From positions 1 to 64,000 of IMG/VR virus record IMGVR_UViG_3300017971_000265: 64,000 nt of DNA; one strand, given 5' to 3'. Made by a program: the position numbers and the translations under genes. Source of the stretch: a virus. This document shows positions 6,771 through 33,440 of the stretch, piece by piece; within the stretch, counting starts at the first letter, position 1; the number at the start of each line of letters is the position of its first letter. Below the pieces are notes generated by a model. That model worked only from the letters and a program-made list of their open reading frames with translations, searched no databases and was not told where the DNA came from.

Positions 6771-6771
6771 A

Positions 6772-7042: not shown

Positions 7043-7231
7043 ATGACGTCTGAGAAGGTAGTTTTGACAATTGAGGAAGTGGCTAAACAGCTCCATACGA
7101 GTCGTACCACCATATTCAAACTCATCAAGGAGGGGTTGCCGACGATCAGGGTGGGTAAGCGTCGGTTAGTTCCGATTAAAAGCTTTGGGGAGTGGTTGGA
7201 GAAAAACACGGTAAGAAGAGGTAAGGAATGA
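7043..7231 (+). CDS. Excisionase/MerR-type HTH DNA-binding protein
   Basis: A 62-residue protein with the HTH_17 pattern: LTIEEVAKQLHTSRTTIFKLI, then VGKRRLVPIKSFGEWL. Such proteins act as excisionases, directionality factors or small repressors. The true start is ATG 7043 behind the GGAGGG of the module hairpin. The longer frame from 6887 translates the repeat. The C-terminus TVRRGKE and stop come from repeat copy F, so both flanks of this gene are repeat-defined, like a cassette. Confidence 0.75.
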   Translation: MTSEKVVLTIEEVAKQLHTSRTTIFKLIKEGLPTIRVGKRRLVPIKSFGEWLEKNTVRRGKE

Positions 7232-7411
7232 GACTAGTCTTAGCCGAGACTAGCGGGAGACATCGGCGTTGCTTGGGGACGTCGAGCCCGGAAGTCCCGC
7301 ATCGAGGAAAGACTTGGCGAGATGGAAATTTCCAGGGGTCTTCTCTATATGCGTGGAGGGTTGTTGAGTGAAATGCTTACCTACGTCTTCTCCACGGGTG
7401 CGTGGAGGGTT
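7208..7411 (+). repeat. Intergenic repeat module, copy F (full length)
   Basis: Full module with TVRRGKE codons, TGA, CGGCGTT variant of the inner stem, GAGGAAAGACTTGG long-stem arm, and two SD hairpins (CTCTATATGCGTGGAG, CTCCACGGGTGCGTGGAG). Confidence 0.85.
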
Positions 7412-11440: not shown

Positions 11441-12142
11441 ATGCGCCTGAGACGTCGTACATACCTGGCCGAGGCCACTTATGAGCGTGATAAGAGAATT
11501 CGTGATGTTGCTGAAAAATTCTATCGGCAATTGCTGTCATATCTAAAGAAATACCCCGATGAGTTAGTGCCGAGGCGAGATGGTGGCTTTTCTGTTCATG
11601 CCGCTGAGTTTTGGGACCATCCCTTGAGGAAGCATTTTGGTGTGGTTTTTATGCCTAAGCGGGGATCGGTGCAGGGGGGGATGGGTAGAGCTGGTAATAC
11701 AGACGTCTTGGTGCTTTATAATCTTATCGCACCGGGAAATCGAAAACATCTCTATACTCGAACCACAAGTCTCCACGATGTTGTCATTCATGAAATGGTT
11801 CACTTCCTAGATCCTGGCTCTAAGTATAAGGAGGGGACGGCAAAGAAGTATGATGCGGGACAACTCGATGCCAAGGCTTACTTTAATGATGCTGGGGAGT
11901 GGAATGCCTTTTGGCAAGAGGGTGCGGCGAAGTTGGAGCGCCTAATAAAGACTGATTTGGTCAAAAATCCTAAAGCAGTGACTCACTTTTTTGGTGATGG
12001 TTCTCTTCGAGCCCTACAGGATAGGGTCAATCGATTCTGGGACGTTATGTTTCTCCAAAGTATGAACAAGAAGACGAGGCGCAAATTTGATAAAAGGTTG
12101 GCTCAACTCTGGCTGAACCTGAAGAAGAAGGGGTTGCTATGA
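11441..12142 (+). CDS. Tagged HEXXH metallopeptidase-like protein (class 1 tag)
   Basis: A 233-residue protein. Residues 1-11, MRLRRRTYLAE, are the class 1 tag, ending in L-A-E before Ala, a good prohead protease site. HEMVH at 117-121 inside VVIHEMVHFLD is a zinc-peptidase signature with the usual hydrophobic context; the third ligand could be downstream. I infer a head-packaged zinc peptidase that may act on capsid, ejection or host proteins. The SD is the GGAG of repeat copy G, 8 bases before ATG. The 3' end overlaps the next gene by 4 bases. Confidence 0.75.
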   Translation: MRLRRRTYLAEATYERDKRIRDVAEKFYRQLLSYLKKYPDELVPRRDGGFSVHAAEFWDHPLRKHFGVVFMPKRGSVQGGMGRAGNTDVLVLYNLIAPGNRKHLYTRTTSLHDVVIHEMVHFLDPGSKYKEGTAKKYDAGQLDAKAYFNDAGEWNAFWQEGAAKLERLIKTDLVKNPKAVTHFFGDGSLRALQDRVNRFWDVMFLQSMNKKTRRKFDKRLAQLWLNLKKKGLL

Positions 12143-13567: not shown

Positions 13568-14405
13568 AGAGATGGATGATTCTGATATGGATGAAGGCGT
13601 TACAAAAATCGAGGATTTGCGACAGCGATCCGGTGTGCCAGGAGATGGGGTAGTTCCTCAGCGTCCGCCTCGTAAAAGGCTTGTTGGTCGCAATCCCAGT
13701 TTTCAATTGCGAAGCCTGAAGTGTTTCGAAGATGTAGATTTGATGGTCAAGAAGGGGGAACTGATTCGTAGCATTGTCAGTTTTATACAACAGGACAAGA
13801 CGGATAGTGAGGGGAATCTTATAGAGGGTGAGCTAAAAGATATGTCGTCTAGTGCTGTGTGGCATCTTGTCAACAATTATCGAAAATACCTAATGTCAGA
13901 TGATGCTGTAGTAGACAAAGCAACCCCCCAGGATCGGCCCGAAGAAGAAGATCCATTTTTTGAGCTTTACAAGATGCAGGAGCATTTTAAGCTGATGGAT
14001 CAGCGGATCGCGATGGAGACAGCTACGGAGAAGAATCTTACTAAATTATTTAGTACGACACATAAGGAGTTTTTGACAGCGGCACGCCTGGGGGATCTCA
14101 TTATGATGAAGAAAGAAAAATTGGGGCTCTTACGGAAGGAGAGAGGTGGTGTACGTCAGCGTGTTGGCAGTGGCGCTCCTGGCCGATTAGATTTGTCCGA
14201 GATAGTTTCAAATCCAGAATCGAGACAGAGGGTGTTGGGTTTTGTAGAGGCCCTTTTTGGTGATCCCGAGCTTTTGGAGGAAATAGGGGGGAAGAAGAAA
14301 GAGGCAGAAGAGAAGCCGAAAAAAGTTAGGTCGAAGAGAGAGAAACGGAAACGAAGAATTTCACCGCGTCCTTCGAGCGGAACATTTGGCAAGCGTAAGA
14401 GATGA
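13560..14405 (+). CDS. Candidate terminase small subunit
   Basis: A 281-residue protein directly upstream of and overlapping TerL by 4 bases. It has a helical centre (about 60-220) with charged coiled-coil-like segments and a very basic C-terminus (KKVRSKREKRKRR). The position and DNA-binding character fit a small terminase that recognises DNA and feeds TerL, but I see no diagnostic motif, so the call is by context. It overlaps the HNH-like gene by 8 bases. Confidence 0.5.
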   Translation: MYREMDDSDMDEGVTKIEDLRQRSGVPGDGVVPQRPPRKRLVGRNPSFQLRSLKCFEDVDLMVKKGELIRSIVSFIQQDKTDSEGNLIEGELKDMSSSAVWHLVNNYRKYLMSDDAVVDKATPQDRPEEEDPFFELYKMQEHFKLMDQRIAMETATEKNLTKLFSTTHKEFLTAARLGDLIMMKKEKLGLLRKERGGVRQRVGSGAPGRLDLSEIVSNPESRQRVLGFVEALFGDPELLEEIGGKKKEAEEKPKKVRSKREKRKRRISPRPSSGTFGKRKR

Positions 14406-17400
14406 TTACTTCTACACGGGGGGGTCGTCACCGGTCCAAGCTTACTCTTATGGAGAAGCGTCAAGATCTGGCTCGTCAGTGGGAAAGTATGTCGGAGATA
14501 GAGAAGGCTGGTGTTCGGCACATTATAGATGAGGTTGATTTTCTCGGCACAGAGAATGATGTGGGGTTTGAGACGCTTGCTGAAATGTTTAGCTGCTCAG
14601 AGGTTTATCACGGTATAGCGGGGGCACATTATGTGGACCGTATCGCATCGGTAGAGGAATTTGTGTTGGATAATTACTATTTGGGCCATGTGGGGAAGTA
14701 TCTATGGCCCAAGTGGTTGGCAGATTTGCAGGAAGTATTTGCTGGTCGATATACCGAGGTGATTGTTACGGGGGCAATTGGCTCAGGGAAATGCCTAGAT
14801 GGCAAGACTGAATTCTATGATCCGGTGAGGGGATGTAGGTTAGTTTTAAAAGAGGTTTGTGCGCGTGATGACGTCCATGTTGTAGCTTTTGATCAAGAAA
14901 CGAACACGACTGTGACCAAAAAGGCTAAGGTGAGATTATCTGGAGAAAAATATCTGGGCACACTTACTCTTGCTAGTGGGAAAGTGATCAGATTAAGTCC
15001 AGATCATCCAGTTCTTACTGAGAATGGATGGAGCCCTATTGGTGATATAACTATGGGGGAGCTAATAGCAACGGCGCGTTCAGTTCCAGCGCCGGATTTT
15101 TGTTATGATGTTTCAGATGAAGAGGTAGAGTTTGTTGCTTTTCTTCTTGCAGAAAAAAGAGGAGTACTTGCAGAAAAAAGAGGAGTACTTGCAGAAAAAA
15201 GAGAAGTAGGTGCAACTGAAAACATTGGCAAAACGATTTTTCATCCACGGGGGACGAGATGGGTTCAGCATAAGTATGGTTTGCATGAGACGTCTCATAG
15301 AAAGCGTATACCTCCTGAATTTTATGGTTTATCAGATGAGCAACTGGGACTTTTCCTTAATAGAATATGGGCTTGCGATGGAAGTATTAATATTGCAGCT
15401 ATAGCTACGTTTGAGATTTGTTTGGCGAGTGAGTTGTTTATTCGTGATATTCAGCAACTACTATTGAGATTTGGTATTCATTCTCAACTTCAAAAAGGAG
15501 AGGGAAGTGAAGATTGGCAGTTAACTATTTCTGGGGCCGAAAACATCGGCCCATTGTGTGCTGCATTGGGGCCTGTCTTGGGAAAGGAAAGTGCATGGAA
15601 AGAGGCCGCTGAGTGGGCAAGGGTTAATCAAGACAATTCCAATATTGAACTCACTAGAATCGGGATGGATTTTGAGTCGCCAGAGCGATGTTCTTGGTGG
15701 ACTGGCGTGTTTTGGGATCGGGTAGTTTCGTTTGATATAGATAATGAGATGAGCCCTGTCTATGACGTAGAAGTTCCTGGGCTTAAAAATTTTGCGCCGC
15801 ATAGTGTTATTGTTCACAATACTACTTTCTCTGATATTGGTATTGCGTACATGTTCTATGAATTGTGCATGTTGAGAGATCCACAGGCGACGTTTGGACT
15901 GATGCCAGGGTCGGAAATTGTTTTGGTCTGTTTCAACCGTGATAAAAAACTAGCTAGAGATGTTACGTTTGGGGGGTTGAAGCGCAAATTAGAGGTTAGT
16001 CCTTTTTTTAAAGAGTTAGGATGCAAGTTTGGTGGTTCTGAGTTGGTTTATCCAGATAAGAATATACGGATCATTGCTGTTTCGGTTCGTTCTGCCGACG
16101 CTTTGGGCAGGGATGTGTTTGGTGGAGTTATTGATGAGACAGAGTTTATGGAGGGGAGCATTTTGAAAGGGGGAGGTGGAGTAGCAGCGCCTGGGGAAAA
16201 ACCATTTGCTGAACTTTTGCATGAGTCGATTACGCGACGTATGAAGTCTCGTTATGAACGTGCAGGTGCTTTGCCTGGAAAGCTCTTTCTTTCATCGTCG
16301 GCGCGACATAAACAATCGTTTACGAATCGCCGCATCGCGAGTGCTGCGAATGATCCGGGAATTTTTTGTCGAGACTATGCCATCTATGACGTCGCTCCTG
16401 CTGAGCGATTTTCAAAGAAGCATTTCTGGGTCATGGTTGGGACCGAGCGTATCAAGCATAAAATATTTCATAGGCGGGAATTTAGAGCGCTAGGGGGTGA
16501 GGGTAGGAAACAACTGGAGGAAAAGGGTTGTCGATTTATCAAGGTGCCGGATAATTTTCGGCCTGATTTTGAGAGAAATATTGAGGATGCTATTCGGGAA
16601 ATTGCCGGAGTAGTGACGGTTGTATTATCTCCGTTCATCCAGATGAGAGATCGCATCTATGATGCCATTGATCCGACACTATTTCATCCCATGGGGTCTG
16701 AGGTGTGGCGTACCGATGAGGCGACTCAAATAGATTGGCGACGATTGGTAAAACTGTATGAGCGGCGTGTTGGGCCGGGTCGGTTAGTAGAAGAATTGAG
16801 GCCCATTCGGCACCCTGATGCTACGCGGCACGCGCATATTGATATCAGTTTGGGAGCAAGCGATCCGGCAGGAATATGTATTGCTCACGTGGTTGATACG
16901 ATAGACGTCGAGAGGAGGACAGAGGGGGGGAGGGAAGTTGTAGAGCAGGCTCCTTTGATTGAGGTGGATCTGATGTTGCGAATACTTCCTCCCCTTAACG
17001 GGGAGATCGATCTGGGATCTATTCGTGCCCTGGTCTATGATTTTGTAAAGCATGGTTATAATTTAACTTTTGTCTCGATGGATCTTAAGTTTTTGAGTGC
17101 TGATACCCTACAACAATTTGAGCATCAGGGAATTGATACTGAGGTTATCAGTGTGGACAAGACTATTCAGCCCTATACTTATTGCAAAACTGCCCTATAT
17201 GAGGGCCGGTTGAGTCTCTATGAATACCCCATTGTTTTACAGGAACTGGAGCAGTTACAGAGAGATGAAATAAAACAGAAAGTTGACCACGTGCCGGGTG
17301 GAAGTAAAGATGTATCTGATAGCCTGGCAGGCGTGGTTTTTAGTCTTTCCACCAAGCAGGCATATCGTGCTCCGATTATGAGAGGCATTAGTGAGTACGA

Positions 17401-17518
17401 GGATCATGATAAGAGTTCGGAGTGGATACGCAAGACGATGCATCGCACAGGGGAAGAAGCGCCTCAAAAAGTTGGTGACGTCCCAGAAGACGGCAAGCCC
17501 ATAATATTTACCGGGTAA
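14402..17518 (+). CDS. terL: Terminase large subunit with intein
   Basis: A 1038-residue precursor; about 695 residues after removing the 343-residue intein. TerL is the packaging ATPase and nuclease. The Walker A GAIGSGK ends at residue 130 and continues as TTFSDIG only after splicing. A Walker B candidate, GGVIDETEFME, lies near residue 577. Nuclease acidic residues fit AHIDISLG, VSMDLKF and KDVSDSLAG near residues 818, 897 and 966. Because the intein splits the P-loop, packaging depends on protein splicing. Followed at 11 bases by the polyprotein gene behind AAAGGAGAAAG. Confidence 0.93.
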   Translation: MITSTRGGRHRSKLTLMEKRQDLARQWESMSEIEKAGVRHIIDEVDFLGTENDVGFETLAEMFSCSEVYHGIAGAHYVDRIASVEEFVLDNYYLGHVGKYLWPKWLADLQEVFAGRYTEVIVTGAIGSGKCLDGKTEFYDPVRGCRLVLKEVCARDDVHVVAFDQETNTTVTKKAKVRLSGEKYLGTLTLASGKVIRLSPDHPVLTENGWSPIGDITMGELIATARSVPAPDFCYDVSDEEVEFVAFLLAEKRGVLAEKRGVLAEKREVGATENIGKTIFHPRGTRWVQHKYGLHETSHRKRIPPEFYGLSDEQLGLFLNRIWACDGSINIAAIATFEICLASELFIRDIQQLLLRFGIHSQLQKGEGSEDWQLTISGAENIGPLCAALGPVLGKESAWKEAAEWARVNQDNSNIELTRIGMDFESPERCSWWTGVFWDRVVSFDIDNEMSPVYDVEVPGLKNFAPHSVIVHNTTFSDIGIAYMFYELCMLRDPQATFGLMPGSEIVLVCFNRDKKLARDVTFGGLKRKLEVSPFFKELGCKFGGSELVYPDKNIRIIAVSVRSADALGRDVFGGVIDETEFMEGSILKGGGGVAAPGEKPFAELLHESITRRMKSRYERAGALPGKLFLSSSARHKQSFTNRRIASAANDPGIFCRDYAIYDVAPAERFSKKHFWVMVGTERIKHKIFHRREFRALGGEGRKQLEEKGCRFIKVPDNFRPDFERNIEDAIREIAGVVTVVLSPFIQMRDRIYDAIDPTLFHPMGSEVWRTDEATQIDWRRLVKLYERRVGPGRLVEELRPIRHPDATRHAHIDISLGASDPAGICIAHVVDTIDVERRTEGGREVVEQAPLIEVDLMLRILPPLNGEIDLGSIRALVYDFVKHGYNLTFVSMDLKFLSADTLQQFEHQGIDTEVISVDKTIQPYTYCKTALYEGRLSLYEYPIVLQELEQLQRDEIKQKVDHVPGGSKDVSDSLAGVVFSLSTKQAYRAPIMRGISEYEDHDKSSEWIRKTMHRTGEEAPQKVGDVPEDGKPIIFTG
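14792..15820 (+). mobile_element. Intein in TerL Walker A
   Basis: 343 residues from Cys (CLDGKTEF) to VIVHN, followed by Thr. Block A and B features are visible: a VAFDQET segment and SPDHPVL. The C-terminal HN is canonical. The central part retains LAGLIDADG-like pieces (VEFVAFLLAEK, and LGLFLNRIWACDGSI), so it derives from a homing-endonuclease intein. The first dodecapeptide runs into a triplicated 7-residue repeat, so the nuclease is probably dead. It holds two GACGTC sites, unlike the other inteins. Confidence 0.92.
15146..15208 (+). repeat. Triplicated 21-bp repeat inside the TerL intein
   Basis: Three in-frame tandem units of 21 bp encode LAEKRGV, LAEKRGV and LAEKREV. The first two units are identical. 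They sit at the end of the first LAGLIDADG-like helix. This looks like slippage in a nuclease domain no longer under selection. Confidence 0.9.
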
Positions 17519-17529: not shown

Positions 17530-20500
17530 ATGACTCTAGTTGTAGCACAAAATATCAGGGATCAACTGCTTGGAAGGGGCGAGGGGAAGTATAGCCTCGA
17601 TACTATAGAGGACTATTTTCTTGAGGCGATGAATCTGATGTTGGGAGATCAGGATTTTGTGTCGGTTGGAGAGAATGTGTGGCAGGTAGAGGGTGAGACT
17701 CCGATTACCGTAGAGGTATTCAGAGTATTTCACGAGGCTACCGGACAAGATATCATCAATAGGGTAGTAATTGTGGCGGGCGACAATAGGAAAGAGGAGC
17801 GATGGGCACTTCCCCCGGCGCGTATTACCGAGAAGTTTTATTTGGATCATCTCAATGCGATCAAGGATTATGTTTCGCAATGTGTGATGGGCAGCATCAT
17901 AGGGGAAGACGTCGAGCTGGATGAAGCCACTTATAAACCAGGCAGCGTGGCTCACTTTCTTATGGTGCTGACGAGCAAGGTAATCCAGGCGGATCAGCGT
18001 CAAGAGAAGGCGGACATTAAGCGTGGAATATCGGTGAATATTTATCGCCTTGGACATTTTTTAAAAGCTATAAAGGATGTTCAAAAGGGTGTTTCTCGGG
18101 TGATGGGTAGCACTGAAAAGAAAGACTTATTGGTTTTGAAACAGCGAATCAGCCGAGCTTTTACTCCGCAGTTTTCTCCTTCCAAGTTTGTACAAAAAGC
18201 AATCGATAAATACCTGGAGACAGGTGCGCTTCCGAAGATCTCAGGCAAGCGGGGAACGAAACCTCCGTGGGAAGAAGTGGATGTAGAACATGATGACGTC
18301 GAGTTGGATGAAGGTTTGGCCAAGGCACCTTGGGAGAAGGGTGGTCCTTCATATGAGAAGCTTGGATATACAGTATTGGCAAAGGTAAAGGGGGTTTTTA
18401 AGACAGACAATGAGCAGGCGGCAAAACGGGTGGCTCGTGAGAAAGAACTCTCCTATGGATTATCAATCTATGGTTCGTGGTATATAGGCAGGCCGTATCA
18501 GCTAAAAAAGCTTGGTGTGCCTAGATGGCAGATAAGAGAAGACGTTTCATCTCTAAGGAAAAGAGACGGCGTGTCTTTATTTGTTGGGGAAGGGATAGAT
18601 CTAGATGAGGCTATTCAGTGGAAAAAGAAGAAGCAACCAGTGACAGGACTCGATAAGTTTGTTGCGGGCGATGTGCGTAACAAGATGGTACTTTCTCCAG
18701 CACTTGCTGGGGATGGCCGGATGAAGGGGTGGAGGCTCCAGTTTCCTAGTGGTGTCGTTATAAATCATCATATTGATGTTTCCGATTCTCATGGGGCGAA
18801 GCGGTGGGCGGAGAAAATAATTGCTACACGCAGAGAAGACGTCGAGTTGGGTGATACTGGATCAGTGGGGGATATTCAGTTGATGCGAGACGAGCTTCTG
18901 GGAGATATCGATGAGGCGTGTAAGACACCGGGCATGAAGAAGCGTTCTAAGGGGAAGGGTCGTGGCTTGGCCAAGGGCAAGGGCAGGGGGCCGTTGGGTA
19001 TTCCCATAGGAGACAAGGTTGAGTTGGAAGACGTCGAGATGAATGAGGCAAAAGAGTTGTCGCATAGAGAGGTGGAAAAAATAATTACATCCTATGCTTC
19101 GGAGTTGTTACCTCTTTTTGCAGACAAATGGAGTAGGTGGCCACAGGGCCAAGCGGCCAGGGAGATTTACAACGTTTTGATGAAAAAACATAAATTTTAT
19201 TCTAGCTCAAAGATGAGTAAGGAAGCTGGTGATATAAAGAATGTTGCTAGGACAATTTTGAAGCGGGGTGGTATCAAGGAAGACGTCGGGTTGGACGAGG
19301 CCCGGCGTAGGAAGAAGATGACCCCGCGAGTCGATCCCGACATCAAGAAGATTCGGCCAGGCACGGTGCCCAAGGAGATCACGCTGTTTGGTGGCAAGAA
19401 GCACGCGGTGGACCCCAAGGCGTGGAAGCACTTCGTGAAGGAGGCCAAGAAGAACAAGAAGTGGGCCGAAGATCACGAGTACGCGAAGAACCCGGACGAG
19501 TGGCCTGCCAGCGGCATAAGCAAGGACATGCTCAAGGAACGGCTCAGAAAATCGGTCGAGCAACTGGCCCTCGATTCGTATCGGTATGCCTATATGCGGT
19601 CGCACGGCGTGGCCAAGGCGTGGGGCTCGAATATGGCTCTCGATCCTGCCGCCAAGAGGAATTGGGAGAAGATCACAGGCAAGAAGATCGAGATCCCGAT
19701 GGACCCGGCTGAGAAGAAGGTGCTGGACGCGCTACGGAAGAAGCGCAGGAACGAGGGTGTAGACGTCTCTGGGTTGCGCGATGACCTTCTGGAGTGCGGG
19801 TGCGAGGACGAACTGGACGAGGCCAAGGGCTTTACCAAGGGGCAGCGCGTATCGACCCCGCTGGGACCGGGTGACGTGGCGTATCAGCGAATGGGTCCTC
19901 CGAACTACAGTGAGCCCGTGTCCGTGTCGGTGGTGATCGACAAGAAGCGCAACAAGCCGGGCTATACCGGGACGATGTTCAAGGCGAAGGACGTGAAGCC
20001 GCTCAAGGAGGATGTCGAGCTGGACGAGGGCATGACCAAGCACACCGTTTTCAAGTTCGGATCGCTGGATGATTTGTGGGATGCTCACGATGCTCTGCGA
20101 GAGGCTGGCATGAATGTCAGCCGGTGGACTGGTGGCTGGAACACCGGGATGCGTGGTCCAATCGCCGCGTGGGTTCACCAGAAGTCGAAGACTCTGGCAT
20201 TCGGTTCTCCGTCCGTAGCGAGCGAGGCCAAGAAGATCCTGTCCGCGAAGAAGATCAAGATCGCCAAGGAGTTCAAGGAAGACGTCGAGTTGGATGAGGG
20301 CGATTCCAATTATGCGCGTTCTGAACTTGGCTATTTGAAAAAAGGTGAGATATGGAGCATACAGATCAGGGATGACAGTGGTGGTGCAACAAAATGGATG
20401 GATATAAACAAAGAGGTAATTTCTGCGTTGAAAGGGAAGGGTCGGGGGACTTACGCTGCGAAGGAGATGGGCCGTTTGAAAAAAGGTGAGATATGGAGCA

Positions 20501-22515
20501 TGCAGATCAGGGATGACAGTGGTGGTGCAACGAAATGGATGAACGTTAGTCCTGGGAGAATCAAGGCGCTTATTTCGATATGGAGCAAGCAGGGTCAACG
20601 AGAAGACGTCGAGTTGGACGAGGCCAATAGAGGTTTGAAGTCACAGGCAAATTCTATTCTAGTGACGGCTCAGGAGATGGAGACAGATCCAGATTATTTG
20701 AGCAGAAAGCCTGTGTTGGTGAAGCCTTATGCGGAGAACATGAGGGGGCATGTCAAGGAGTTGTTGGCTCGAAGCAGAGATCCATTGGTAGAAGATATTG
20801 CCAATTCAATTAGCCAGATTCGACAGAAAATGGAAAAGATGGCTAGGTATAGTGGGGGGCGCATTCCTGCCGAAAGGTTTTCGGAGTTTTTTATAAAATT
20901 AAAAGCGCAGGCCAAGGGGATACTCTCTGCGCTGAGAAGCAAGTCGGTGGCGGAAGGCATATTAGATGAGGCCAAGAAGACCTACGTGGTGAACGTTAAG
21001 AAGTATTTCCGGGGCATCACGGATCGTGGCGCGGTGGTCAAGGCTAGGAGTGAGAAGGAGGCTATTGCCAAGGCTGCGAAGCAGCTTGGTAAGAAACCGA
21101 GTTATCTGGAGATTGAGAATGTGTACGAAGATGTCGAGATGAATGAGGGCGAAACTCTTTTTATTTCTCCGACTAAGGAGGGGAACAAAAAGTGGCAGAT
21201 CCTTCACAGCACTAGCGGGATGGTCGGGACAGGTGGCCAGATCATCAAGATAGGGGGCAAGAAGGAAATCAAGGCGCTGGCGGCCAAGCTCGCGAAGAAA
21301 TGGAAGGCCGAAGTCAAGGAACTGGCTGGCGAAGACATCGAGATGGAGGCTGGGGACGAAATTCACGCTCTCAGGGACGAGCTGCTTGGGGGCGTAGATG
21401 AGGCGTGCAAGACACCGGGTATGAAGAAGCGTTCTAAGGGGAAGGGTCGTGGCTTGGCCAAGGGCAAGGGCAGGGGTCCGTTGGGTATTCCTGTTGATGA
21501 GTTGGAAGACATCGAGCTGGATGAGGGCCGCAAGGTCAAGCAGTTTGAGTTGGGTGACATTGTACGTCATACCAAGAAGTTCTTGCGAAACACGGGTCAA
21601 TACACTGGAGTACCCAGGAGTGGAAAGGTTGTTGGTTTTATTGATCTTGCTGGAAAGAAACTACCAAGGGTGAAATGGGATGATGGTAATGAGGCTCCCA
21701 TTCAGCCGGAAAATATCGAAATACATCCGAGGCACAGGAGGCGTATCGAAGACGTCGAGTTGGATGAGGCTAAGACCATTGCTCAGTTTGATCCAGTGAA
21801 GGTGGGGACAAAGGTCAAGTTGGTTCGTGGCCTGTTTGATATGGAGAAAGATCTTTTGCGTAAGAAAAATGTGCATTTCACTTTCGTTCGGTGGGCGAAG
21901 CCTCACGGGCATGCTGTGGTGAAGGATAGTAGTGGAGCGAATTGGCATGTGCATCCCGAGTCTCTTATTCTTGCCGAAGATGTCGAGTTGGATGAGGCTA
22001 CGCCAGCTGGTGGTGCGGTAGCACTGAAAGCAATAGCGGCACTAATGAAGGATTTCCAATACGCTCCCAAGGAATCGAACAAGTATTATGCGGCGTTTGT
22101 ATATCGGGGACGAGGGGGTAATCAATCTAGGATACTCGCGAAAGCTGAGAGTGCCTTGGCTGATGCTGGTTTTGACGAAGCGTCTTTTGGCACGTCGGGG
22201 GCTGGGCTTATGGCCGAGACGAGGAGGGGCAAGGTCTGGGTCAATATATATCTACCAGGACTAAGGACAGAAGACGTCGAACTGGATGAGGCTGGTGTAA
22301 CTGGTTATTCAATTATGCAGCTTTATAATATTTTGGCCCGGACGGTTAAGAAGGGAACTGTAAAAGAGATCGAGATGATTCATAACGAGTTAAAGGCCAA
22401 GGGGGCTGATATGCACCTGGTTGACCTAATTATCAGATCGGGAGGAAAGCTTCCTGGTCGTGTCAAAAAAATAGCATCTTTGAGCGAGATGAGAAATGAG
22501 CTGCTGGGCAGCTAG
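17530..22515 (+). CDS. Giant head polyprotein with about 17 predicted prohead-protease sites
   Basis: A 1661-residue protein. The motif (E)DVELDE, or close variants ending in Glu before Ala or Gly, recurs with Glu at residues 132, 261, 360, 462, 506, 590, 764, 833, 923, 1031, 1147, 1206, 1273, 1291, 1332, 1413, 1489 and 1587. L-x-E is the cleavage pattern of T4-type prohead proteases. The pieces are about 20-175 residues and mostly basic. Several look like small SH3/KOW-like folds (near 765-825 and 1333-1400). A basic K/G/R segment starting ACKTPGMKKRSKG occurs at 463 and 1292; a second duplication, LKKGEIWS, occurs near 936 and 983. Location between TerL and portal fits an internal head role. 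Site 437 (VELGD) is degenerate. Confidence 0.8.
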   Translation: MTLVVAQNIRDQLLGRGEGKYSLDTIEDYFLEAMNLMLGDQDFVSVGENVWQVEGETPITVEVFRVFHEATGQDIINRVVIVAGDNRKEERWALPPARITEKFYLDHLNAIKDYVSQCVMGSIIGEDVELDEATYKPGSVAHFLMVLTSKVIQADQRQEKADIKRGISVNIYRLGHFLKAIKDVQKGVSRVMGSTEKKDLLVLKQRISRAFTPQFSPSKFVQKAIDKYLETGALPKISGKRGTKPPWEEVDVEHDDVELDEGLAKAPWEKGGPSYEKLGYTVLAKVKGVFKTDNEQAAKRVAREKELSYGLSIYGSWYIGRPYQLKKLGVPRWQIREDVSSLRKRDGVSLFVGEGIDLDEAIQWKKKKQPVTGLDKFVAGDVRNKMVLSPALAGDGRMKGWRLQFPSGVVINHHIDVSDSHGAKRWAEKIIATRREDVELGDTGSVGDIQLMRDELLGDIDEACKTPGMKKRSKGKGRGLAKGKGRGPLGIPIGDKVELEDVEMNEAKELSHREVEKIITSYASELLPLFADKWSRWPQGQAAREIYNVLMKKHKFYSSSKMSKEAGDIKNVARTILKRGGIKEDVGLDEARRRKKMTPRVDPDIKKIRPGTVPKEITLFGGKKHAVDPKAWKHFVKEAKKNKKWAEDHEYAKNPDEWPASGISKDMLKERLRKSVEQLALDSYRYAYMRSHGVAKAWGSNMALDPAAKRNWEKITGKKIEIPMDPAEKKVLDALRKKRRNEGVDVSGLRDDLLECGCEDELDEAKGFTKGQRVSTPLGPGDVAYQRMGPPNYSEPVSVSVVIDKKRNKPGYTGTMFKAKDVKPLKEDVELDEGMTKHTVFKFGSLDDLWDAHDALREAGMNVSRWTGGWNTGMRGPIAAWVHQKSKTLAFGSPSVASEAKKILSAKKIKIAKEFKEDVELDEGDSNYARSELGYLKKGEIWSIQIRDDSGGATKWMDINKEVISALKGKGRGTYAAKEMGRLKKGEIWSMQIRDDSGGATKWMNVSPGRIKALISIWSKQGQREDVELDEANRGLKSQANSILVTAQEMETDPDYLSRKPVLVKPYAENMRGHVKELLARSRDPLVEDIANSISQIRQKMEKMARYSGGRIPAERFSEFFIKLKAQAKGILSALRSKSVAEGILDEAKKTYVVNVKKYFRGITDRGAVVKARSEKEAIAKAAKQLGKKPSYLEIENVYEDVEMNEGETLFISPTKEGNKKWQILHSTSGMVGTGGQIIKIGGKKEIKALAAKLAKKWKAEVKELAGEDIEMEAGDEIHALRDELLGGVDEACKTPGMKKRSKGKGRGLAKGKGRGPLGIPVDELEDIELDEGRKVKQFELGDIVRHTKKFLRNTGQYTGVPRSGKVVGFIDLAGKKLPRVKWDDGNEAPIQPENIEIHPRHRRRIEDVELDEAKTIAQFDPVKVGTKVKLVRGLFDMEKDLLRKKNVHFTFVRWAKPHGHAVVKDSSGANWHVHPESLILAEDVELDEATPAGGAVALKAIAALMKDFQYAPKESNKYYAAFVYRGRGGNQSRILAKAESALADAGFDEASFGTSGAGLMAETRRGKVWVNIYLPGLRTEDVELDEAGVTGYSIMQLYNILARTVKKGTVKEIEMIHNELKAKGADMHLVDLIIRSGGKLPGRVKKIASLSEMRNELLGS

Positions 22516-22525: not shown

Positions 22526-23824
22526 ATGTCGCGACTAGAGTCGATTCGGGCCTTACGGGATGCTGTTGTAGAAAACAAAAGGGTTGGAAATCAGTCTCGT
22601 CTTGAATCGGGAGAGAAGCCTCGGTCTAGGATCAGGTTGCCAATTTTGCCAACTAAGAAGAAAGAATTGAGGCAGAAAAAAATTGAGTGGAGTGGCATTG
22701 ATTTCCGTCAATGGCTTACTGACGTCAACGAAGCGGTAGATTCTATTACTGGGATGGACATGGATATTTTGCCAGAGATGCCTTGGCAGAGCTGGTTCAA
22801 AGAAGGGATGGAGCCAGAGGATGCGGCAAGGCTTGCGCTGGAAGCTGCAGAGTTAGGGGATGATATCTCTGAAGAGGAGGAGGAGTTGAATGAGCGTGGC
22901 TTTTTTAGGCCGTCGTATCAAAAATGGATCAGCAAGCTCGATAAGCGATTAAGAAAAAAGGGAGGGGCTACTCTTTCAGCTCTCAAAAGGGCGGGTCGAG
23001 TCTCTAATTCAACTCTCCATTCTATATTTATGAGCCAGGCCACGGCAGAAATGGCTGCTCGGATGCTGCTTCAGGCCGTAGGAACTCCGATGGAAGATGA
23101 AGCAGTGTCTCTTCGGAGGCGCAATTTTGTATCGGAGAACCAGATGGAGGATTCTTTTGATCAATTGCGTGACCTAATGGATGAGTTTGGGATTGGTACT
23201 AGCCGTCCCCCTGTGACGACACGGGATATTGGCGAACCAGAGGAAGGGCTCGATGAGGAAAATACATCTTCTTCTCAGGAAACCCATGAGCTTCCTCAGA
23301 AGGCCCAGAGTCCTTCTCAGTTGTCCCAAGACGTATCAAGTGCCATTGCTGCCGTAAGGGCTGTGGAGGAGAAGGAGCGGGCACACAAGGATGCTCAGAG
23401 TGAGATAGAAGAGGCTTCTGTTCAAGGTGGAGACTATGGAAGGTGGGGGCCAGCTACGACAGCGGCTGGATCGGCTGGCAGATCCTTAGCGTCGGCCATT
23501 GCTAAGGCGAGTGGTGAGAGCTATCATTTTCATCAGGAAGGGATGGCTCAAAGTGCGGATGTGGGATCGGATCTTTGGTTTGAGATCGAGCCAAAAAATC
23601 CTAAGAGCCCTATTTACTATTTGGGTATCAAGATAAAAGGGGACAAGGAAGATCCGCGATGGGATGTTATGCTTAAGAAGGGTGCTGGGCTGGGATCAGC
23701 TACTTCGGTTGGGTCGAAACGCGGCATAGAGACGTCTAAGTTAAAGGGGGCGATTAACGAACTCAAGGCTGGGTTGAAACAAAAAACGAAAAAGAAGGAT
23801 GGTGATAAAGATGCGGCCAGTTAA
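22526..23824 (+). CDS. Putative head protein with an internal class 1 tag
   Basis: A 432-residue protein behind AGAGGAGGATAG. The N-terminal region is basic, the middle is acidic with an EEEEELNE run near residue 120, and the C-terminus is Lys-rich. At about residue 194 it contains VSLRRRNFVSE, the class 1 tag in the middle of the chain. The Val codon is GTG (23105), so this could be an internal start or a fused tagged protein. The N-terminal L-R-D-A-V-V-E is also tag-like. Position before the portal suggests a head or cargo role. Confidence 0.6.
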   Translation: MSRLESIRALRDAVVENKRVGNQSRLESGEKPRSRIRLPILPTKKKELRQKKIEWSGIDFRQWLTDVNEAVDSITGMDMDILPEMPWQSWFKEGMEPEDAARLALEAAELGDDISEEEEELNERGFFRPSYQKWISKLDKRLRKKGGATLSALKRAGRVSNSTLHSIFMSQATAEMAARMLLQAVGTPMEDEAVSLRRRNFVSENQMEDSFDQLRDLMDEFGIGTSRPPVTTRDIGEPEEGLDEENTSSSQETHELPQKAQSPSQLSQDVSSAIAAVRAVEEKERAHKDAQSEIEEASVQGGDYGRWGPATTAAGSAGRSLASAIAKASGESYHFHQEGMAQSADVGSDLWFEIEPKNPKSPIYYLGIKIKGDKEDPRWDVMLKKGAGLGSATSVGSKRGIETSKLKGAINELKAGLKQKTKKKDGDKDAAS

Positions 23825-24107
23825 AGTGAGACTTCCGATGCATCACAAAGATCCTGAGACGGGTCAAATAAAAAGCACCTATGCGACCTATCGGGGCTAT
23901 GAGGCACAAGTCACGGAGGGAGAACGGCAGCGATTCCATACGGCACGGCTGTTCTATTTGAAAAACACCAAGGATGAGGATTGTGTATTCAGAGTCAGGG
24001 GCAACGGCATCTATGAGATGCAAAAGGTTGGTCTCAATCGCGTCTTAGCCAGTGGGACAATGATGGATTCGACACCTCCAGAAATTATTCCGCAGATGGG
24101 GCAGTAG
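23811..24107 (+). CDS. Hypothetical protein upstream of portal
   Basis: A 98-residue protein of mixed strands and helices overlapping the upstream gene by 14 bases. ATG 23811 was chosen with AAGGATGGTG before it; ATG 23799 is the alternative and would add four residues. No motif is recognised. Conserved placement directly before the portal hints at a portal-associated or packaging role. Confidence 0.6.
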   Translation: MRPVKVRLPMHHKDPETGQIKSTYATYRGYEAQVTEGERQRFHTARLFYLKNTKDEDCVFRVRGNGIYEMQKVGLNRVLASGTMMDSTPPEIIPQMGQ

Positions 24108-24110: not shown

Positions 24111-26858
24111 ATGTCTAAGATCTCGCAGGCATCGGCCCAATTTATTCGGAATATTTTTGGGCGAGAGAGAGCAAAGAGCGATCTGGCAATTTCGTCTAGG
24201 GAGTTGATTAGAACGGCCCAGGGTGGGATGTATGGATCTGGAATAGATGTGGGAGGTATCGGAGGTATTGGAGAAGCCCTAGCTCTCGATAGACGTCTCC
24301 TCTATCGTTACGGTGACTATGAGGAGATGGATGAATACCCCGATATTAATGCGGCCCTGGATATTTATGCTGACGATACTACACAGGTTGATGGGGCTAA
24401 GAGACAAAGCGTGTGGGTCGAAAGTGATGATGGCAAAATCAAGGATGAACTAAATGATCTTTTTCATGAACGTTTAAAGATTGAGGAAAATATCTGGTCT
24501 ATTGCGAGAACTCTCTCAAAGTACGGGAATGATTTCGAAGAAATTGTAGTGGGGGATGGCGGGGTTGTTGATCTTAACTATTTACCTATCGCCAGTGTGA
24601 GGCGCGTAGAGGATAAGCGGGGAAACCTCTTAGGATTTGCACAGACCTTTTCTGGCAACGTGGATATATCGCCGGAACAGTTTGAGAAATTACGAATTCC
24701 CGGAGGGGGCGCTGTAGGGCCTCAAAAGGACGTCGCTGCATTTGAAGATTGGCGTGTTGTGCATATGAGATTGCTCTCGAAGCATCGTGAATCAAAGTAT
24801 GGATGGAGTGTGGTAGATGCGGCGAGATGGATCTGGAAAAGATTGATGCTGCTCGAAGATGCCGTGATGGTTTACAAGTTATGTTTGCGTGGTGACTCTC
24901 AGGTATGGACAACAAATGGTAAGAAGGCCATTAGGGATCTTGAGGAGGGGGAAGAGGTTTTTTCCTACACAAGGGATGATGTCCTGAAAAAGACTAGGGT
25001 TGTTTATAAAAAACATAATGGGAAAGATCGACTTTTTAGGATTAAAAGCGCCCATCGTGAGCTGTTTGCTAATGCGACACACCCCGTATTGGTTGAGACA
25101 ATCATTGGCAAGGGAAGTGGCAAATCGTGTGGGCGCAGGATGGATTATGTCGAGGTAAAGGATCTTAGGCCGGGTGAGCATCGTCTTGTGACTCCTTTTA
25201 GGGATGATAGTCTTTGTGAAGATATACCATTGGTCGTGCCGGAGGCGCTTGACGACAATAAGAAGTTAAATCTACCCAAAGTAGTAAATGCTGATTTTGC
25301 AAAATGGTTTGGCTTTATGATCGGTGTTGGTTTTGCTTCGGCGCGATCTTTTATCGAGGGAGATAGAGCATGTCTGGTCTACGAGGTAGGTTTTGTATCC
25401 GGGGACAAGAGGGACATTAATGAGAAGTATCGAGAACTATTTGCTTCCTTCTTTGGTGAGCCCAAATTTGTGAAAGCTGAGAGGTCCAGGCATGATTGTG
25501 TCGGTAAGTTTTTAATATCTTCGAGGGCTCTTTATGAGTTTATGATATTGAATGGATTTATGGCGCATAACAGACGGATTCCAGAATGGGTCTTTAGGTC
25601 TTCAACGGTTGTACGGGAAGCGTTCCTTGAGGGATTAGCTGATGGCTATTGCGAAGGGGGTGGGGTCAGTGTTGAACGCGGTCGTGTAAGCATATCTCTT
25701 GAGTCGTGTAATTTTGAATTGGTCAGAGATGTACGTGAACTAGTGATGCAGCTTGGTTTTAGGGTTGGCAAGATTACGTCTAGGGAAAGACCGGATAGTT
25801 ATCTTCCCGAGACGACTATTTATTGTGTGAGTTGGAGTTATGATAGGCAACCTATGACTGAGGAGCTGGAAAGTGTTGAAGAGGTCGAGGTTGATGATAT
25901 TTGGGACATTGGTGTTGAGGCTGATGAGCATAATTTCGTAGCGAATGGAATAGTTGTTCATAACACTAGGAGTCCATCTAGGTATGCTTTTTATATTGAT
26001 GTGGGAAAATCGAATCGACAAGAGGCAGAGCGGTATGTGCAAGAGGTGATGCAGCGATTGAAGAAGAAGAAGTTTGTGAATCCCAAGACGGGAAAATTGG
26101 ATCTTAAAAATAACCCCATGGGGATGGATGAAGACTTCTTTTTGGCAATGCGTGAGGGTAGGGAGCAGACCAGGGTAGAGTCATTAATGGGGCCGTCGTA
26201 TCAGCAAGTTGACGATGTGGAATATTTTTTAAACAAACTCTATGCTGCGATAAGAATCCCCAAGGCGTATCTGGGATATGATCAAAATCTCCCAAGCAAG
26301 GCAACCCTAAGTATGGAAGACGTCCGTTTCGGGCGGACTATTTTGCGCATTCAGCGAGAGGTGCGCAACGGGTTGAGAAAGATTGCTAATGTTGATTTAG
26401 CGGCGAGGCGAATAGATCCTGCTGCGACTAAGTTTGATATAATGATGGCTGTACCGAGTGCCATATTCGAGCTTGGCCAGATGGAGATTAGGCGAGCACG
26501 GGCCGATCTCGCCTCTATGATGGAACGGCACGTATCTCTCTACTGGATCTTGAGCAACATCTATGGTTTGGCAGAGGATGAAATAGCCGAAATAACCAAG
26601 CAGAAAAAAACTGAACAAAAGATGATGGGCGGTGCTGGAGGCGGTATGGGTGGGGGAGGTTTTGAGTCGGTTGATCCCAGGCAGGGCAGGGTAATTAGTG
26701 AGCGTGAATTGATGGATGGAAAAAAAGAAGACGAGAAACGTGTCGAAGAGATTGTTCACAAGGTGGTAAATGATCCATCGAGTCCGTTGGGTAGGCAACT
26801 GCGAGAAACGGGACATCTCGTTCGTGAAATTGTCCATTCTCTTCATAGTTCTGCATAA
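24111..26858 (+). CDS. T4 gp20-like portal protein with intein
   Basis: A 915-residue precursor; about 554 residues after splicing. Portal proteins form the dodecameric DNA channel at the capsid vertex. T4-type landmarks: EYPDINAALDIYADD near residue 77, TRSPSRYAFYIDVGK after the intein, then DDVEYFLNKLYAAIRIPKAY near residue 703. The C-terminus has a Gly/Met-rich low-complexity stretch and an acidic helical end. The intein interrupts VYKL/TRSPSR. It follows the preceding gene by 3 bases. Confidence 0.93.
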   Translation: MSKISQASAQFIRNIFGRERAKSDLAISSRELIRTAQGGMYGSGIDVGGIGGIGEALALDRRLLYRYGDYEEMDEYPDINAALDIYADDTTQVDGAKRQSVWVESDDGKIKDELNDLFHERLKIEENIWSIARTLSKYGNDFEEIVVGDGGVVDLNYLPIASVRRVEDKRGNLLGFAQTFSGNVDISPEQFEKLRIPGGGAVGPQKDVAAFEDWRVVHMRLLSKHRESKYGWSVVDAARWIWKRLMLLEDAVMVYKLCLRGDSQVWTTNGKKAIRDLEEGEEVFSYTRDDVLKKTRVVYKKHNGKDRLFRIKSAHRELFANATHPVLVETIIGKGSGKSCGRRMDYVEVKDLRPGEHRLVTPFRDDSLCEDIPLVVPEALDDNKKLNLPKVVNADFAKWFGFMIGVGFASARSFIEGDRACLVYEVGFVSGDKRDINEKYRELFASFFGEPKFVKAERSRHDCVGKFLISSRALYEFMILNGFMAHNRRIPEWVFRSSTVVREAFLEGLADGYCEGGGVSVERGRVSISLESCNFELVRDVRELVMQLGFRVGKITSRERPDSYLPETTIYCVSWSYDRQPMTEELESVEEVEVDDIWDIGVEADEHNFVANGIVVHNTRSPSRYAFYIDVGKSNRQEAERYVQEVMQRLKKKKFVNPKTGKLDLKNNPMGMDEDFFLAMREGREQTRVESLMGPSYQQVDDVEYFLNKLYAAIRIPKAYLGYDQNLPSKATLSMEDVRFGRTILRIQREVRNGLRKIANVDLAARRIDPAATKFDIMMAVPSAIFELGQMEIRRARADLASMMERHVSLYWILSNIYGLAEDEIAEITKQKKTEQKMMGGAGGGMGGGGFESVDPRQGRVISERELMDGKKEDEKRVEEIVHKVVNDPSSPLGRQLRETGHLVREIVHSLHSSA
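24882..25964 (+). mobile_element. Intein in portal protein
   Basis: 361 residues from Cys (CLRGDSQVWTTNGKKAI) to VVHN, followed by Thr. Block B is seen as ANATHPVLVE. Two LAGLIDADG-like helices are clear (WFGFMIGVGFASA and AFLEGLADGYCEGG), the second with acidic residue and Gly, so the homing endonuclease may be active. No GACGTC occurs in the intein, consistent with recent entry. Confidence 0.93.
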
Positions 26859-27917: not shown

Positions 27918-29165
27918 ATGGCAGTTCGACCTCTCGAAGAAGATTTCCAACGTTTAGGATTATCACAAGATGAAATCCGTGCGTCACTTCACAATATGGG
28001 GCGACCCTTGGGTGAAATGGCAGAGGCGGATCTCAGCGATGGTTCTGAAGAAGAGGAAGATGAGGACTTCGAGGAATCCTATCTGAGTGATCTGATAGGT
28101 CATGACGACGATGAGGCAGAGGACTTTGACGAGATGTCAGAGGAAGATTATTTTGAGTTTGTTGACAATCTTTCCGATGAAGAGTTGGATAGGTTGCTTG
28201 AAAACTCGGAGATGTTCGAGGCGAAGTTTATCAAGCTTACTCCTTTGGGTACGCGCAAGACGGCTCGCAGGAAGAGGAAGAAATGGCTCAAAACGGCTGC
28301 GGGTCAAGCCTATGCAAGAAAGCAGATGCAGAAGCGAAAGCGTCCCGCTTTTAAAAAGCAAGCCAAGAAGCAGCGTATTAGGCGCAAAAGAGCGGGTGGA
28401 GCACGTAAGGGCTATATGATGCGTGCCGGAGTCGAAAATCCTTCAGAAGGGAAAGAAGCTATACATGAAGATCTCATGGAAAGCTTGACCGATCTCGCTG
28501 AGTCGATTGAGCGTGAACCTGTTTCTCGTTTCGACGAATATGTCACAGCATTTAATGCCCTTGCTGATCTGGGAGAGCTGGGTGCTGCAAAGATCATGGA
28601 CGAAGACGAAGATGCGGCAATGGACGTCTTGAATCTGTCGCTCCAGGCAGAAGAAGTGTTGAAGCTCATGGAGGACATGGGTGGAGCGCTCGACGAAGAC
28701 GAAGACGAGGTGCTGGAAGAGGCTCTGGCCCAGCTGATGGAGCTTGCCGGAGAACTCGTCGAGGAGTATGGCTTGCTTCTCGAAGATGAAGACGAGGAAG
28801 AGTATGAGGACGAGGAGCTGGAAGAAGATGAGGAAGAGATCAATCCCTTCCTAGAGGCTGCTGCTTCGCTTCGTGAAGCTAGACGTCCCCCCAAGGGCAA
28901 GAAGCGCTTTCTTCTCAATCCTAAGTCCAGAAAGGCCGTAAAGGGTCGGTCGAAGTGGAGCAAGGCCGGTGGCAATGCTAAGAGGCAGTTGGCTGGACGC
29001 AAAGATGTGAGGAATAAGCAGGCTTTGCTTGGCTATCTCAAGATGGTGAAGGCGGGCAAGGTTGCTCCTGGCCAACCCATTATGATGAGTAAAACCGGGA
29101 AGCCCCTCAGCAAGGGTGCGAGAGCTGCCAAGAAATTGGCTGCGGCCCGAAGGAAAGCTGGCTGA
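27918..29165 (+). CDS. Prohead core-like protein with alternating acidic and basic blocks
   Basis: A 415-residue protein. Acidic stretches (about 35-95 and 230-310, with long Asp/Glu runs) alternate with strongly basic blocks (about 115-170 and 325-415, ending in AKKLAAARRKAG). Several L-x-E-like sites border the blocks. Such charge patterning and position between portal and protease resemble T4 gp67/gp68 core proteins that are cut during maturation. It overlaps the protease start by 1 base. Long Ser-rich ORFs on the minus strand here are its antisense. Confidence 0.65.
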   Translation: MAVRPLEEDFQRLGLSQDEIRASLHNMGRPLGEMAEADLSDGSEEEEDEDFEESYLSDLIGHDDDEAEDFDEMSEEDYFEFVDNLSDEELDRLLENSEMFEAKFIKLTPLGTRKTARRKRKKWLKTAAGQAYARKQMQKRKRPAFKKQAKKQRIRRKRAGGARKGYMMRAGVENPSEGKEAIHEDLMESLTDLAESIEREPVSRFDEYVTAFNALADLGELGAAKIMDEDEDAAMDVLNLSLQAEEVLKLMEDMGGALDEDEDEVLEEALAQLMELAGELVEEYGLLLEDEDEEEYEDEELEEDEEEINPFLEAAASLREARRPPKGKKRFLLNPKSRKAVKGRSKWSKAGGNAKRQLAGRKDVRNKQALLGYLKMVKAGKVAPGQPIMMSKTGKPLSKGARAAKKLAAARRKAG

Positions 29166-31955: not shown

Positions 31956-33440
31956 ATGGAAGCGAGAGATTATCTCAACGATGAGGCGCTTGCACAATCG
32001 GCCGGAACCGTTCTGGACGAGGATCTGAATGTGGCGCTTCAGGCAAAGTGGGGCGGATTGATGGAACAGGGCTGGGACTCGTGGACGAAGCGCTGCATGG
32101 CGCGGATGTTCGAGAACGAGATGGTCCACCTCAATCAGCTCAAACGAAGGTTTCTCACAGAGGCCACGCTGGCGCAAAACATCCCGGATCTGGTCAAATT
32201 CATCTTTCCCATCGTGCGGAGAGTATGGGCCAACCTGATCGCTAACGGGCTGTTTTCGATTCAGCCGATGAACTCGCCAATTGGAGGCATCTTCTATTGG
32301 GAGTACAAGTACGGGACGTCAAAGGGAACTATCACTGCTGGCGACAACATGATAGAGAACTTTGATCGTTACTACTCCTCGGAATATGTCGATGGCGAAT
32401 CGATTGGAACTGGCACCGATACCTATTCTGGTACGCTGGCTTGGAAGCCTGTGAAGCCTTATGGCATGGGCCAGGTGGGAATCGAGTTCGTTGGTACTAC
32501 CGATGTCGGGGCTACTCTGCGCATCTATGATGCTGACGGAAGTGGTGATTTGTCAGGAGATGTCAGTGGTGCAAACACTATTACGTTTGCCACGGGTGCT
32601 TACAGCATCAAATTCACCGCATCTGTAAATAATGTGGTTGCCAACTACTTCTACAACATGGAGGCTGAGGCGGACAACGTACCGCAGGTCAACGTGGACA
32701 TCACCCTCGAAGCTATCAAGGCTTGGAGTCGGAAGCTGAAGATATTGTGGTCCAGCGAGGCTGCAGACGACATGAGGGCCGTGCTCAATATGGATATTGA
32801 GCCCGAGTTGACATCCGGTGTGGCAAGTGAGATCGCGCTGGGTATCGACCGCGAGCTGATCATGGCGGCTTACGGTTCGGGAACAACCAACACAGACACG
32901 TTCGATGCAGCGGTGCCACCGGGACGAAACCAGGTGGATCACTTCCGCAACATCATGACGACCATCGAGAAGGTGTCGGGTGGGATCAACACGGCTACGC
33001 ACAGAGGCCCTGGCAACTTCCTGGTTATAGGGCCGAGCGTACAGCCGATTTTTGGTGCGCTGGCCACGCACGGTGACCTGGTACGTGTCTATACGGACGT
33101 GCCGACAGGACCGGTAGGCCAGGGTGTGACGGGACGTCCCGCATTCCCATTGCCGCAGGCTCCGAGTGGATACGGTGTTTATCCGATGGGCTTCCTCCAG
33201 AACAAGTGGACGGTCATTGTGGACCCGTATTTCCCGAGTGGGAAGATTCTGGTCGGTCTGAAGGGGACGATGTTCACCGACTCCGGTTTGGTGTATGCCC
33301 CCTACGTGCCACTGGAAATGACGGCTGCGTTCCTCGATCCGGCAGACTTTTCGCTGCGGAAGGGTATGAGAACCAGGTATGCCAAGAAGCTGGTTAATTC
33401 CAATTTCTACGGCATTATCACGGTAACCAACCTTCCCTAA
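31956..33440 (+). CDS. T4 gp23-like major capsid protein
   Basis: A 494-residue HK97-fold capsid protein of T4 type. FLTE before Ala at about residues 66-69 is the expected prohead protease site. It is followed by IPDLVKFIFPIVRRVWANL and FSIQPMNSPIGGIFYW, which parallel mature T4 gp23. Codons favour C at third positions, typical of a very highly expressed gene. Start ATG 31956 follows TTGGAGGATAGAC. A terminator-like hairpin follows the stop. Confidence 0.95.
   Translation: MEARDYLNDEALAQSAGTVLDEDLNVALQAKWGGLMEQGWDSWTKRCMARMFENEMVHLNQLKRRFLTEATLAQNIPDLVKFIFPIVRRVWANLIANGLFSIQPMNSPIGGIFYWEYKYGTSKGTITAGDNMIENFDRYYSSEYVDGESIGTGTDTYSGTLAWKPVKPYGMGQVGIEFVGTTDVGATLRIYDADGSGDLSGDVSGANTITFATGAYSIKFTASVNNVVANYFYNMEAEADNVPQVNVDITLEAIKAWSRKLKILWSSEAADDMRAVLNMDIEPELTSGVASEIALGIDRELIMAAYGSGTTNTDTFDAAVPPGRNQVDHFRNIMTTIEKVSGGINTATHRGPGNFLVIGPSVQPIFGALATHGDLVRVYTDVPTGPVGQGVTGRPAFPLPQAPSGYGVYPMGFLQNKWTVIVDPYFPSGKILVGLKGTMFTDSGLVYAPYVPLEMTAAFLDPADFSLRKGMRTRYAKKLVNSNFYGIITVTNLP

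Follow-up and report, generated by a model that had tools for sequence, protein, structure and literature searches.

The open reading frame at 17530–22515 (+) probably encodes a polyprotein of internal-head cargo that is cut by an S77-type protease at 16–17 sites, with the resulting pieces retained in the head and most likely injected. The frame lies in the window, a stretch of 64,000 nucleotides that comprises positions 1 to 64,000 of IMG/VR record IMGVR_UViG_3300017971_000265; the whole record is 77.9 kb long and is a metagenome contig, as are its close relatives. Processing of polyproteins is typical of animal and plant RNA viruses, and tailed phages have been described as making their internal head proteins one per gene. 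This reading is drawn from the repeated sites and their conservation, their occurrence alongside the protease and proteins that such enzymes are known to cut, the positions of the module boundaries, and the existence of stand-alone homologues. Related marine phages appear, by sequence, to share the same arrangement, which is reminiscent of animal RNA viruses. Profile matches to Portal_T4, the Gp23 capsid protein and a Peptidase_S77 prohead protease identify the head type of the record as that of T4.

The polyprotein is encoded in one uninterrupted frame of 1661 residues (185 kDa, pI 9.3). The exact sequence DVELDE occurs eight times in this chain (about zero times in shuffled sequences), the broader consensus [ED]D[VI][EG][LM][DN]E occurs 12 times (0 in 2000 shuffles), and [LIM][DNEG]E[AG] occurs 16 times, compared with a shuffled mean of 1.0 and a maximum of 5. 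All 12 copies of the consensus have A or G at P1', while two of the 16 shorter matches have M at P3. A further V-D-E/A at residue 1291 (the slash marks the predicted cut) brings the total to 17, in agreement with an earlier note on this DNA that had counted about 17 sites. The (E)DVELDE form followed by A or G that was described in the same note holds for the 12 sites with the full consensus, the remainder being degenerate (GIDLDE, GDIDE, GVDE, EDELDE, GILDE). The sites split the chain into 17–18 pieces of about 41–174 residues, which matches the upper end of the spacing first estimated (20–175 residues) and corrects the lower end. The description of the pieces as basic applies to 13 of the 17 pieces set by the 16 L/I/M sites (pI of at least 8.3) and not to the first, which is acidic (pI 4.4). 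Synonymous codons differ from site to site, suggesting that most sites are conserved as protein sequence rather than being recent DNA repeats. Additional L/I-x-E sequences inside the modules are weakly depleted in the window (7 versus 12.7, P = 0.05) and in the related phage G001 (P = 0.07), with no depletion in another relative, G003. A strong EDVELDE-type motif is absent from every other open reading frame of the window on both strands, and a degenerate DNA pattern for EDVELDE gave seven forward matches in the whole 77.9-kb record versus none with a reversed-pattern control. The single chain does lie between the TerL and portal genes, as had been noted, with two open reading frames (22526–23824 and 23799–24107) intervening before the portal gene.

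The predicted cuts delimit 18 modules, all on the plus strand. Module 1 (17530–17925, residues 1–132) is acidic, carries the N-terminal sequence NIRDQLLG as a candidate capsid-targeting leader, ends in EDVELDE/A, and shares about 30% identity with its homologue, the N-terminal module of the G003 polyprotein. The basic module 2 (17926–18312, residues 133–261) ends in DDVELDE/G and is followed by module 3 (18313–18609, residues 262–360; GIDLDE/A) and module 4 (18610–18915, residues 361–462; DIDE/A), which holds the leader-like segment LMRDELLG. Module 5 (18916–19047, residues 463–506; EDVEMNE/A) is a 44-residue basic peptide that begins ACKTPGMKKRSKGKGRGLAKGKGRGPLGIP and is present also in G001 and L142. 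Next are module 6 (19048–19299, residues 507–590; EDVGLDE/A) and module 7 (19300–19821, residues 591–764; EDELDE/A), the latter with a GLRDDLLE motif ahead of its site. Modules 8 (19822–20028, residues 765–833) and 9 (20029–20298, residues 834–923) both end in EDVELDE/G, and module 10 (20299–20622, residues 924–1031; EDVELDE/A) contains an internal duplication in which LKKGEIWS[IM]QIRDDSGGATKWM occurs twice. Modules 11 (20623–20970, residues 1032–1147; GILDE/A), 12 (20971–21147, residues 1148–1206; EDVEMNE/G) and 13 (21148–21402, residues 1207–1291; ALRDELLGGVDE/A) precede module 14 (21403–21525, residues 1292–1332; EDIELDE/G), the second copy of the basic peptide. The site EDVELDE/A then closes modules 15 (21526–21768, residues 1333–1413), 16 (21769–21996, residues 1414–1489) and 17 (21997–22290, residues 1490–1587), the last of which shows partial homology to the C-terminal region of the G004 protein (33% over 63 residues). 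The C-terminal module 18 (22291–22512, residues 1588–1661) ends in EMRNELLGS.

The partial duplication of pieces that had been claimed earlier is found in the gene as a 116-nt copy containing the basic-peptide cassette (18889/21376, 91%) and a 72-nt tandem copy (20329/20470, 94%). The basic peptide CKTPGMKKRSKGKGRGLAKGKGRGPLGIP, which lies between cut sites at 18916–19047 and 21403–21525, recurs in three phages with different surroundings; its other carriers are L116 (G001) and L142 (7076–8338). Its composition is protamine-like, and a search for the peptide in phage records gave no match. Likewise, comparison of the polyprotein (P0001) with Pfam, PHROGs, NCBIfam and PADLOC gave no match above noise, either for the whole chain or for single modules, and AlphaFold run without deep alignments performed poorly on the modules (pLDDT 40 and 54). 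For some modules an SH3-like or a ribosome-modulation-factor-like fold had been considered; neither is claimed given these pLDDT values and a sole ribosome modulation factor (RMF) match in another phage. That match is a module of L059 (Pfam RMF, E = 0.055) similar to a 73-residue module found at L004:1769–1987 (−) and L049:1352–1567 (+), which resembles RMF by eye and matches phrog_19203 (E = 7.5e-8). Such a module would fit an injected protein that acts on the ribosome.

The predicted processing enzyme is the prohead protease encoded at 29165–31927 (+), which matches Peptidase_S77 (PF03420) at 3.9e-9, above the cut-off. This protein contains a 389-residue intein between GELDHP and SDGKT. With the intein removed, GEL[ND]HP and GVSSRG[LF]G align with T4 gp21 and the GVSSRGFG motif is intact; the protein also possesses a long charged C-terminal extension. 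A separate, highly charged open reading frame (27918–29165) occupies the gp67/68 position. In the major capsid protein (Gp23; 31956–33440, +), the sequence KRRFLTE/ATLAQ falls in the column of T4 gp23 E65/A66, consistent with the documented length of 65 residues for the T4 gp23 propeptide (PMC9026906). The L-x-E/A or S form of this capsid site is kept in the window, G001, G002 and G003, as well as in most further relatives. Since the capsid L-x-E is kept and the S77 motifs are intact, the protease of this phage is expected to recognize L-x-E followed by A, S or G, the pattern seen at the polyprotein sites. Inteins are found in three neighboring head genes of the window, namely TerL (14402–17518), portal (24111–26858) and protease (29165–31927), and the G001 protease is without one. 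A tandem 21-bp repeat in three copies (15146–15208) lies inside the TerL intein.

The distribution of the motif has also been probed beyond the window. A scan of viral contigs with the whole polyprotein failed, as expected for a chain whose modules are unconserved, and a DNA pattern for EDVELDE[AG] was used to scan IMG/VR instead, giving 105 matched stretches. Among the 26 loci that also have recognizable T4-like head genes, a count that exceeds the number of independent lineages because some contigs are near-duplicates, the motif-bearing frame lies inside the core cluster portal-[67/68]-protease-22-capsid in 23. In five loci (L026, L030, L046, L051 and L064) this frame is the gp22 gene itself. 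A 1062-residue frame with five sites lies between the portal and protease genes in L077 and L092, and frames with four to eight sites occur also in L061, L074, L093, L099, L010, L052, L059, L079, L088, L098 and L102. As gp22 is a known gp21 substrate (PMC9026906), the presence of EDVELDE in gp22 and in the core cluster ties the motif to the S77 protease beyond the window's own lineage. Together with the alignment of the capsid FLTE/A with T4 gp23, this agrees with the T4-type specificity that the earlier note had assumed for the protease.

It is conceivable that the motif is instead a tether that binds the core or the protease, and that the chain is injected whole as an uncut multidomain protein. 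The so-called polyvalent proteins provide a precedent, as they are large, multidomain and injected, and few are known to be processed (PMC5512222); acidic VELDE-like motifs could also bind basic partners. However, the motif includes the P3–P1 rule of the phage's own protease and occurs in gp22, a protease substrate, and the invariant A or G at P1' would be needless in a tether. The tether reading is accordingly quite improbable compared with that of a cleaved polyprotein.

Comparison with close relatives of the window phage, whose capsid proteins are 71–78% identical, offers insights into how such chains are built. The G001 chain has 1061 residues and at least 10 sites and is encoded between the capsid and sheath genes, outside the core cluster. 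The G003 chain (about 1090 residues) adjoins TerL as in the window, and shorter related chains are found in G004 (about 427 residues) and L142 (about 400 residues). The TerL-adjacent slot is without a polyprotein gene in G001 and G002, indicating that the position of the gene is not fixed. Nor is the module set conserved between relatives: the G001 and G003 polyproteins have four modules in common (30–69% identity), arranged differently and with breaks in homology that fall at or close to sites. Across 37 non-redundant proteins, with the sites excised before comparison and shifted sites as the control, 72 of 351 homology ends fall within five residues of a site, compared with 21 expected and a maximum of 49 in 1000 shifts (P < 0.001). 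Such alignments indicate that, from phage to phage, the cut sites are where modules have been added, dropped, duplicated or rearranged. The whole protein is without a family match, which would also be seen if the chain belonged to the tail or another structure and its repeats were incidental, or if it arose as an assembly artefact. Either is very improbable, as single-frame polyproteins built in this way are found on independent contigs of other metagenomes and the module boundaries track the sites. A search of GTDB genome contigs for a relative of the capsid protein found none and so gave no host link for the window phage.

Several modules have counterparts that exist as separate proteins. 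Three modules of the relatives align over almost the full length of PHROGs families (phrog_9437, positions 5–98 of 98; phrog_21515, 4–135 of 151; phrog_19203, 5–59 of 61), and the stand-alone phrog_9437-type proteins of phiM12 and RcSpartan are encoded by 100-residue genes that start within a few residues of the predicted LTE/A cut. Among the modules of the window itself, module 2 is the only one with a stand-alone homologue, which is a separate gene with its own 29-residue leader in the huge phage LR745208; the homology begins at the module start. Further stand-alone homologues sit in runs of small genes of unknown function in Paride, XaC1 and KVP40. Shared modules are also present in a cultured T4-like phage, the Methylophilales phage Melnitz (gp20 and gp21). 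The coincidence of module ends with sites and the existence of these homologues suggest that the chains consist of autonomous proteins joined by protease linkers.

These observations bear on the possibility that the chain is an assembly core or scaffold like T4 gp22, gp67 and gp68, in which the sites serve to break the protein down so that the fragments exit and the DNA gains room. Each of these T4 proteins is one gene product that gp21 cuts many times, as is predicted for the window chain, and most of the resulting fragments leave the head and are discarded (PMC9026906). The same site occurs in gp22 and in the gp67/68 gap of other T4-like contigs, and the acidic first module may be a core-binding part. 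In contrast, L/I-x-E occurs about every 17 residues in T4 gp22 (16 in 269 residues), whereas the sites here are about 100 residues apart and bound distinct, mostly basic modules. These modules are poorly conserved, reordered and in some cases matched by stand-alone proteins, which suits cargo. Additionally, the window has a separate charged frame at the gp67/68 position and a charged protease extension, and the G001 gene lies outside the core cluster. A gp22-type scaffold is characterized by dense L/I-x-E, a location between the protease and capsid genes and an acidic composition; the window chain has a pI of 9.3 and widely spaced sites and follows TerL, and the G001 chain follows the capsid gene. 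Based on the site spacing, the basic and diverse pieces and the stand-alone counterparts, a disposable gp22-like scaffold is unlikely relative to a polyprotein of retained cargo.

Candidate leaders are found on other genes of the window. The motif L[RK]xRx[YF][LIV]xE, which has the form of the capsid site (LKRRFLTE), occurs nine times in the open reading frames of the window versus 0.02 times in shuffled sequences, and seven of the nine copies lie at or near the N termini of small, otherwise unrelated proteins. These include a 233-residue protein (11441–12142, +; MRLRRRTYLAE/A) that is a candidate separate cargo, a small protein (40550–40795, +; MNLRRRGYLQE/S), and the products of genes starting at 12139, 39410, 40170, 41776 and 51345. 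Generic L-x-E in the first 32 residues is only modestly enriched (19 of 43 versus 28%, P = 0.02); it is the specific leader motif that stands out. A second leader type, MNLHKVNELLAE/T on a 203-residue protein (43606–44217, +) and MKLRKINELLGD, resembles the leader of T4 gp24, which we take to be cut as MAKINELLRE/S. Capsid-type leaders likewise occur on small genes of G001 and G004, and within the G001 polyprotein the leader RFRQREYLTE/A directly precedes the phrog_9437 module. This unit looks like a former separate cargo gene that was fused into the chain. In the window chain, the first consensus site comes only at residue 132, and the leader-like sequences are the N-terminal NIRDQLLG and four more R[DN]xLL segments. 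Segments of the RDxLLG type, present at both ends of the chain and within it, may be core-targeting helices.

Leader-like sequences were also observed in more distant phages. In LR745208.1, a 485-kb phage (L144–L154), the 29-residue leader MTTLRSKLIRLAHxxPxLRPxLLPLLKE/A is present on at least 11 different genes, and several of these leaders end in LLKE/A. It is likely the capsid-targeting leader of another lineage; a search for Peptidase_S77 in LR745208 found none, so the likeness to the leaders of the window is one of logic. The cyanophage-type cytidyltransferase-like proteins L110 (Syn30 CPRG_00119) and L119 (Melnitz gp18) start with MKKFSAFLNEA and MKKFSEIIEA, which look like capsid-targeting leaders with L/I-x-E, and these proteins may be head cargo.

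Taken together, the sequences suggest the following mechanism. First, the whole chain would enter the prohead core, probably by means of its helical leader-like segments (RDxLLG, N-terminal and internal). Next, the gp21-type serine protease would be activated and would cut the chain after L/I/M-x-E while maturing the capsid protein, releasing about 17 small, mostly basic proteins. Finally, these pieces would stay in the head with the DNA and most likely enter the host on infection, as T4 internal proteins do. We infer cleavage, packaging and retention, and a host-directed function of the pieces from the features described above; injection is probable by analogy with the T4 internal proteins. 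The earlier proposal that one gene supplies a set of internal head proteins is thereby supported by the sites in gp22 and the core gap, the alignment of the capsid cut, the breakpoints at sites, the stand-alone homologues and the leaders on other genes.

The closest functional parallel is with the T4 internal proteins, which have capsid-targeting leaders of 10–19 residues, undergo gp21 cleavage after L/I-x-E and enter the host by injection, and several of which inhibit type IV restriction enzymes (PMC9026906, PMC3012670, PMC12373910). Similar to IPI, IPII, IPIII and Alt, the predicted pieces form a diverse, basic and poorly conserved set of head cargo with S77-type L/I-x-E cutting (PMC3012670, PMC9026906, PMC12373910). 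In contrast to T4, in which each internal protein has its own gene and a short N-terminal leader, about 17 pieces are predicted in the one chain of the window, the inner ones being cut on both sides, and typical leaders are found on separate small genes of the window. With 16–17 sites in one chain, the gene is predicted to work like those of the T4 internal proteins and is not an internal-protein gene of the T4 kind. In phiKZ and SPN3US, a gp21-like prohead protease also cuts head proteins several times on the C-terminal side of Glu, and many proteins are ejected (PMC10052503, PMC9026906), but there the cuts remove long propeptides to leave one mature protein per gene. The polyvalent proteins of phages and conjugative elements, in which many unrelated domains are joined in one chain and delivered with the DNA, are the nearest concept (PMC5512222). 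They have recognizable enzymatic domains and, where processed, a peptidase domain of their own has been proposed (PMC5512222), whereas the sites here fit the head protease; P0001 has no significant Pfam, NCBIfam or PADLOC domain that would place it among them.

The components of this system (T4 internal proteins, capsid-targeting leaders and gp21) are known, while the arrangement appears to be new, with a wide distribution in T4-like phages. Searches of openly licensed papers found no earlier account of a phage that makes its internal head proteins as a polyprotein, in accord with the earlier note, whose author knew of no precedent of this size in phage heads. To our knowledge, the function of internal proteins is mostly unknown beyond a few T4 examples. 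If the chains are cut as predicted, EDVELDE/A or G and its variants reveal many unannotated proteins that are packaged in the head and probably injected, together with their exact mature ends, and their function becomes testable module by module. The signature would apply to marine and other T4-like phages from sequence alone. There is about an even chance that the arrangement reflects a general strategy of the T4 superfamily, wherein interchangeable small host-takeover or anti-defense proteins, which are otherwise products of individual genes, are joined into polyproteins by standard protease linkers, loaded into the head, cut there and co-injected, new effectors being acquired by insertion of a module between two EDVELDE sites.

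Other repeats are present in the window. A dispersed repeat family of up to 161 nt is found at 3229–3389, 4451–4611, 6027–6187, 6758–6918, 7208–7368 and 34486–34646, with parts at 2495 and 11322. The repeats hold a ACTAGTCTTAGCCGAGACTAG palindrome and TGCGTGGAGGGTTG, lie near gene starts, create doubtful starts of open reading frames such as MLLGDVEPGSPALGKG, and could be promoters or a mobile or RNA element. Finally, three 117-nt tandem repeats at 59450–59800 would read as a collagen-like (G-x-y) sequence on the minus strand, with an open frame on the plus strand.
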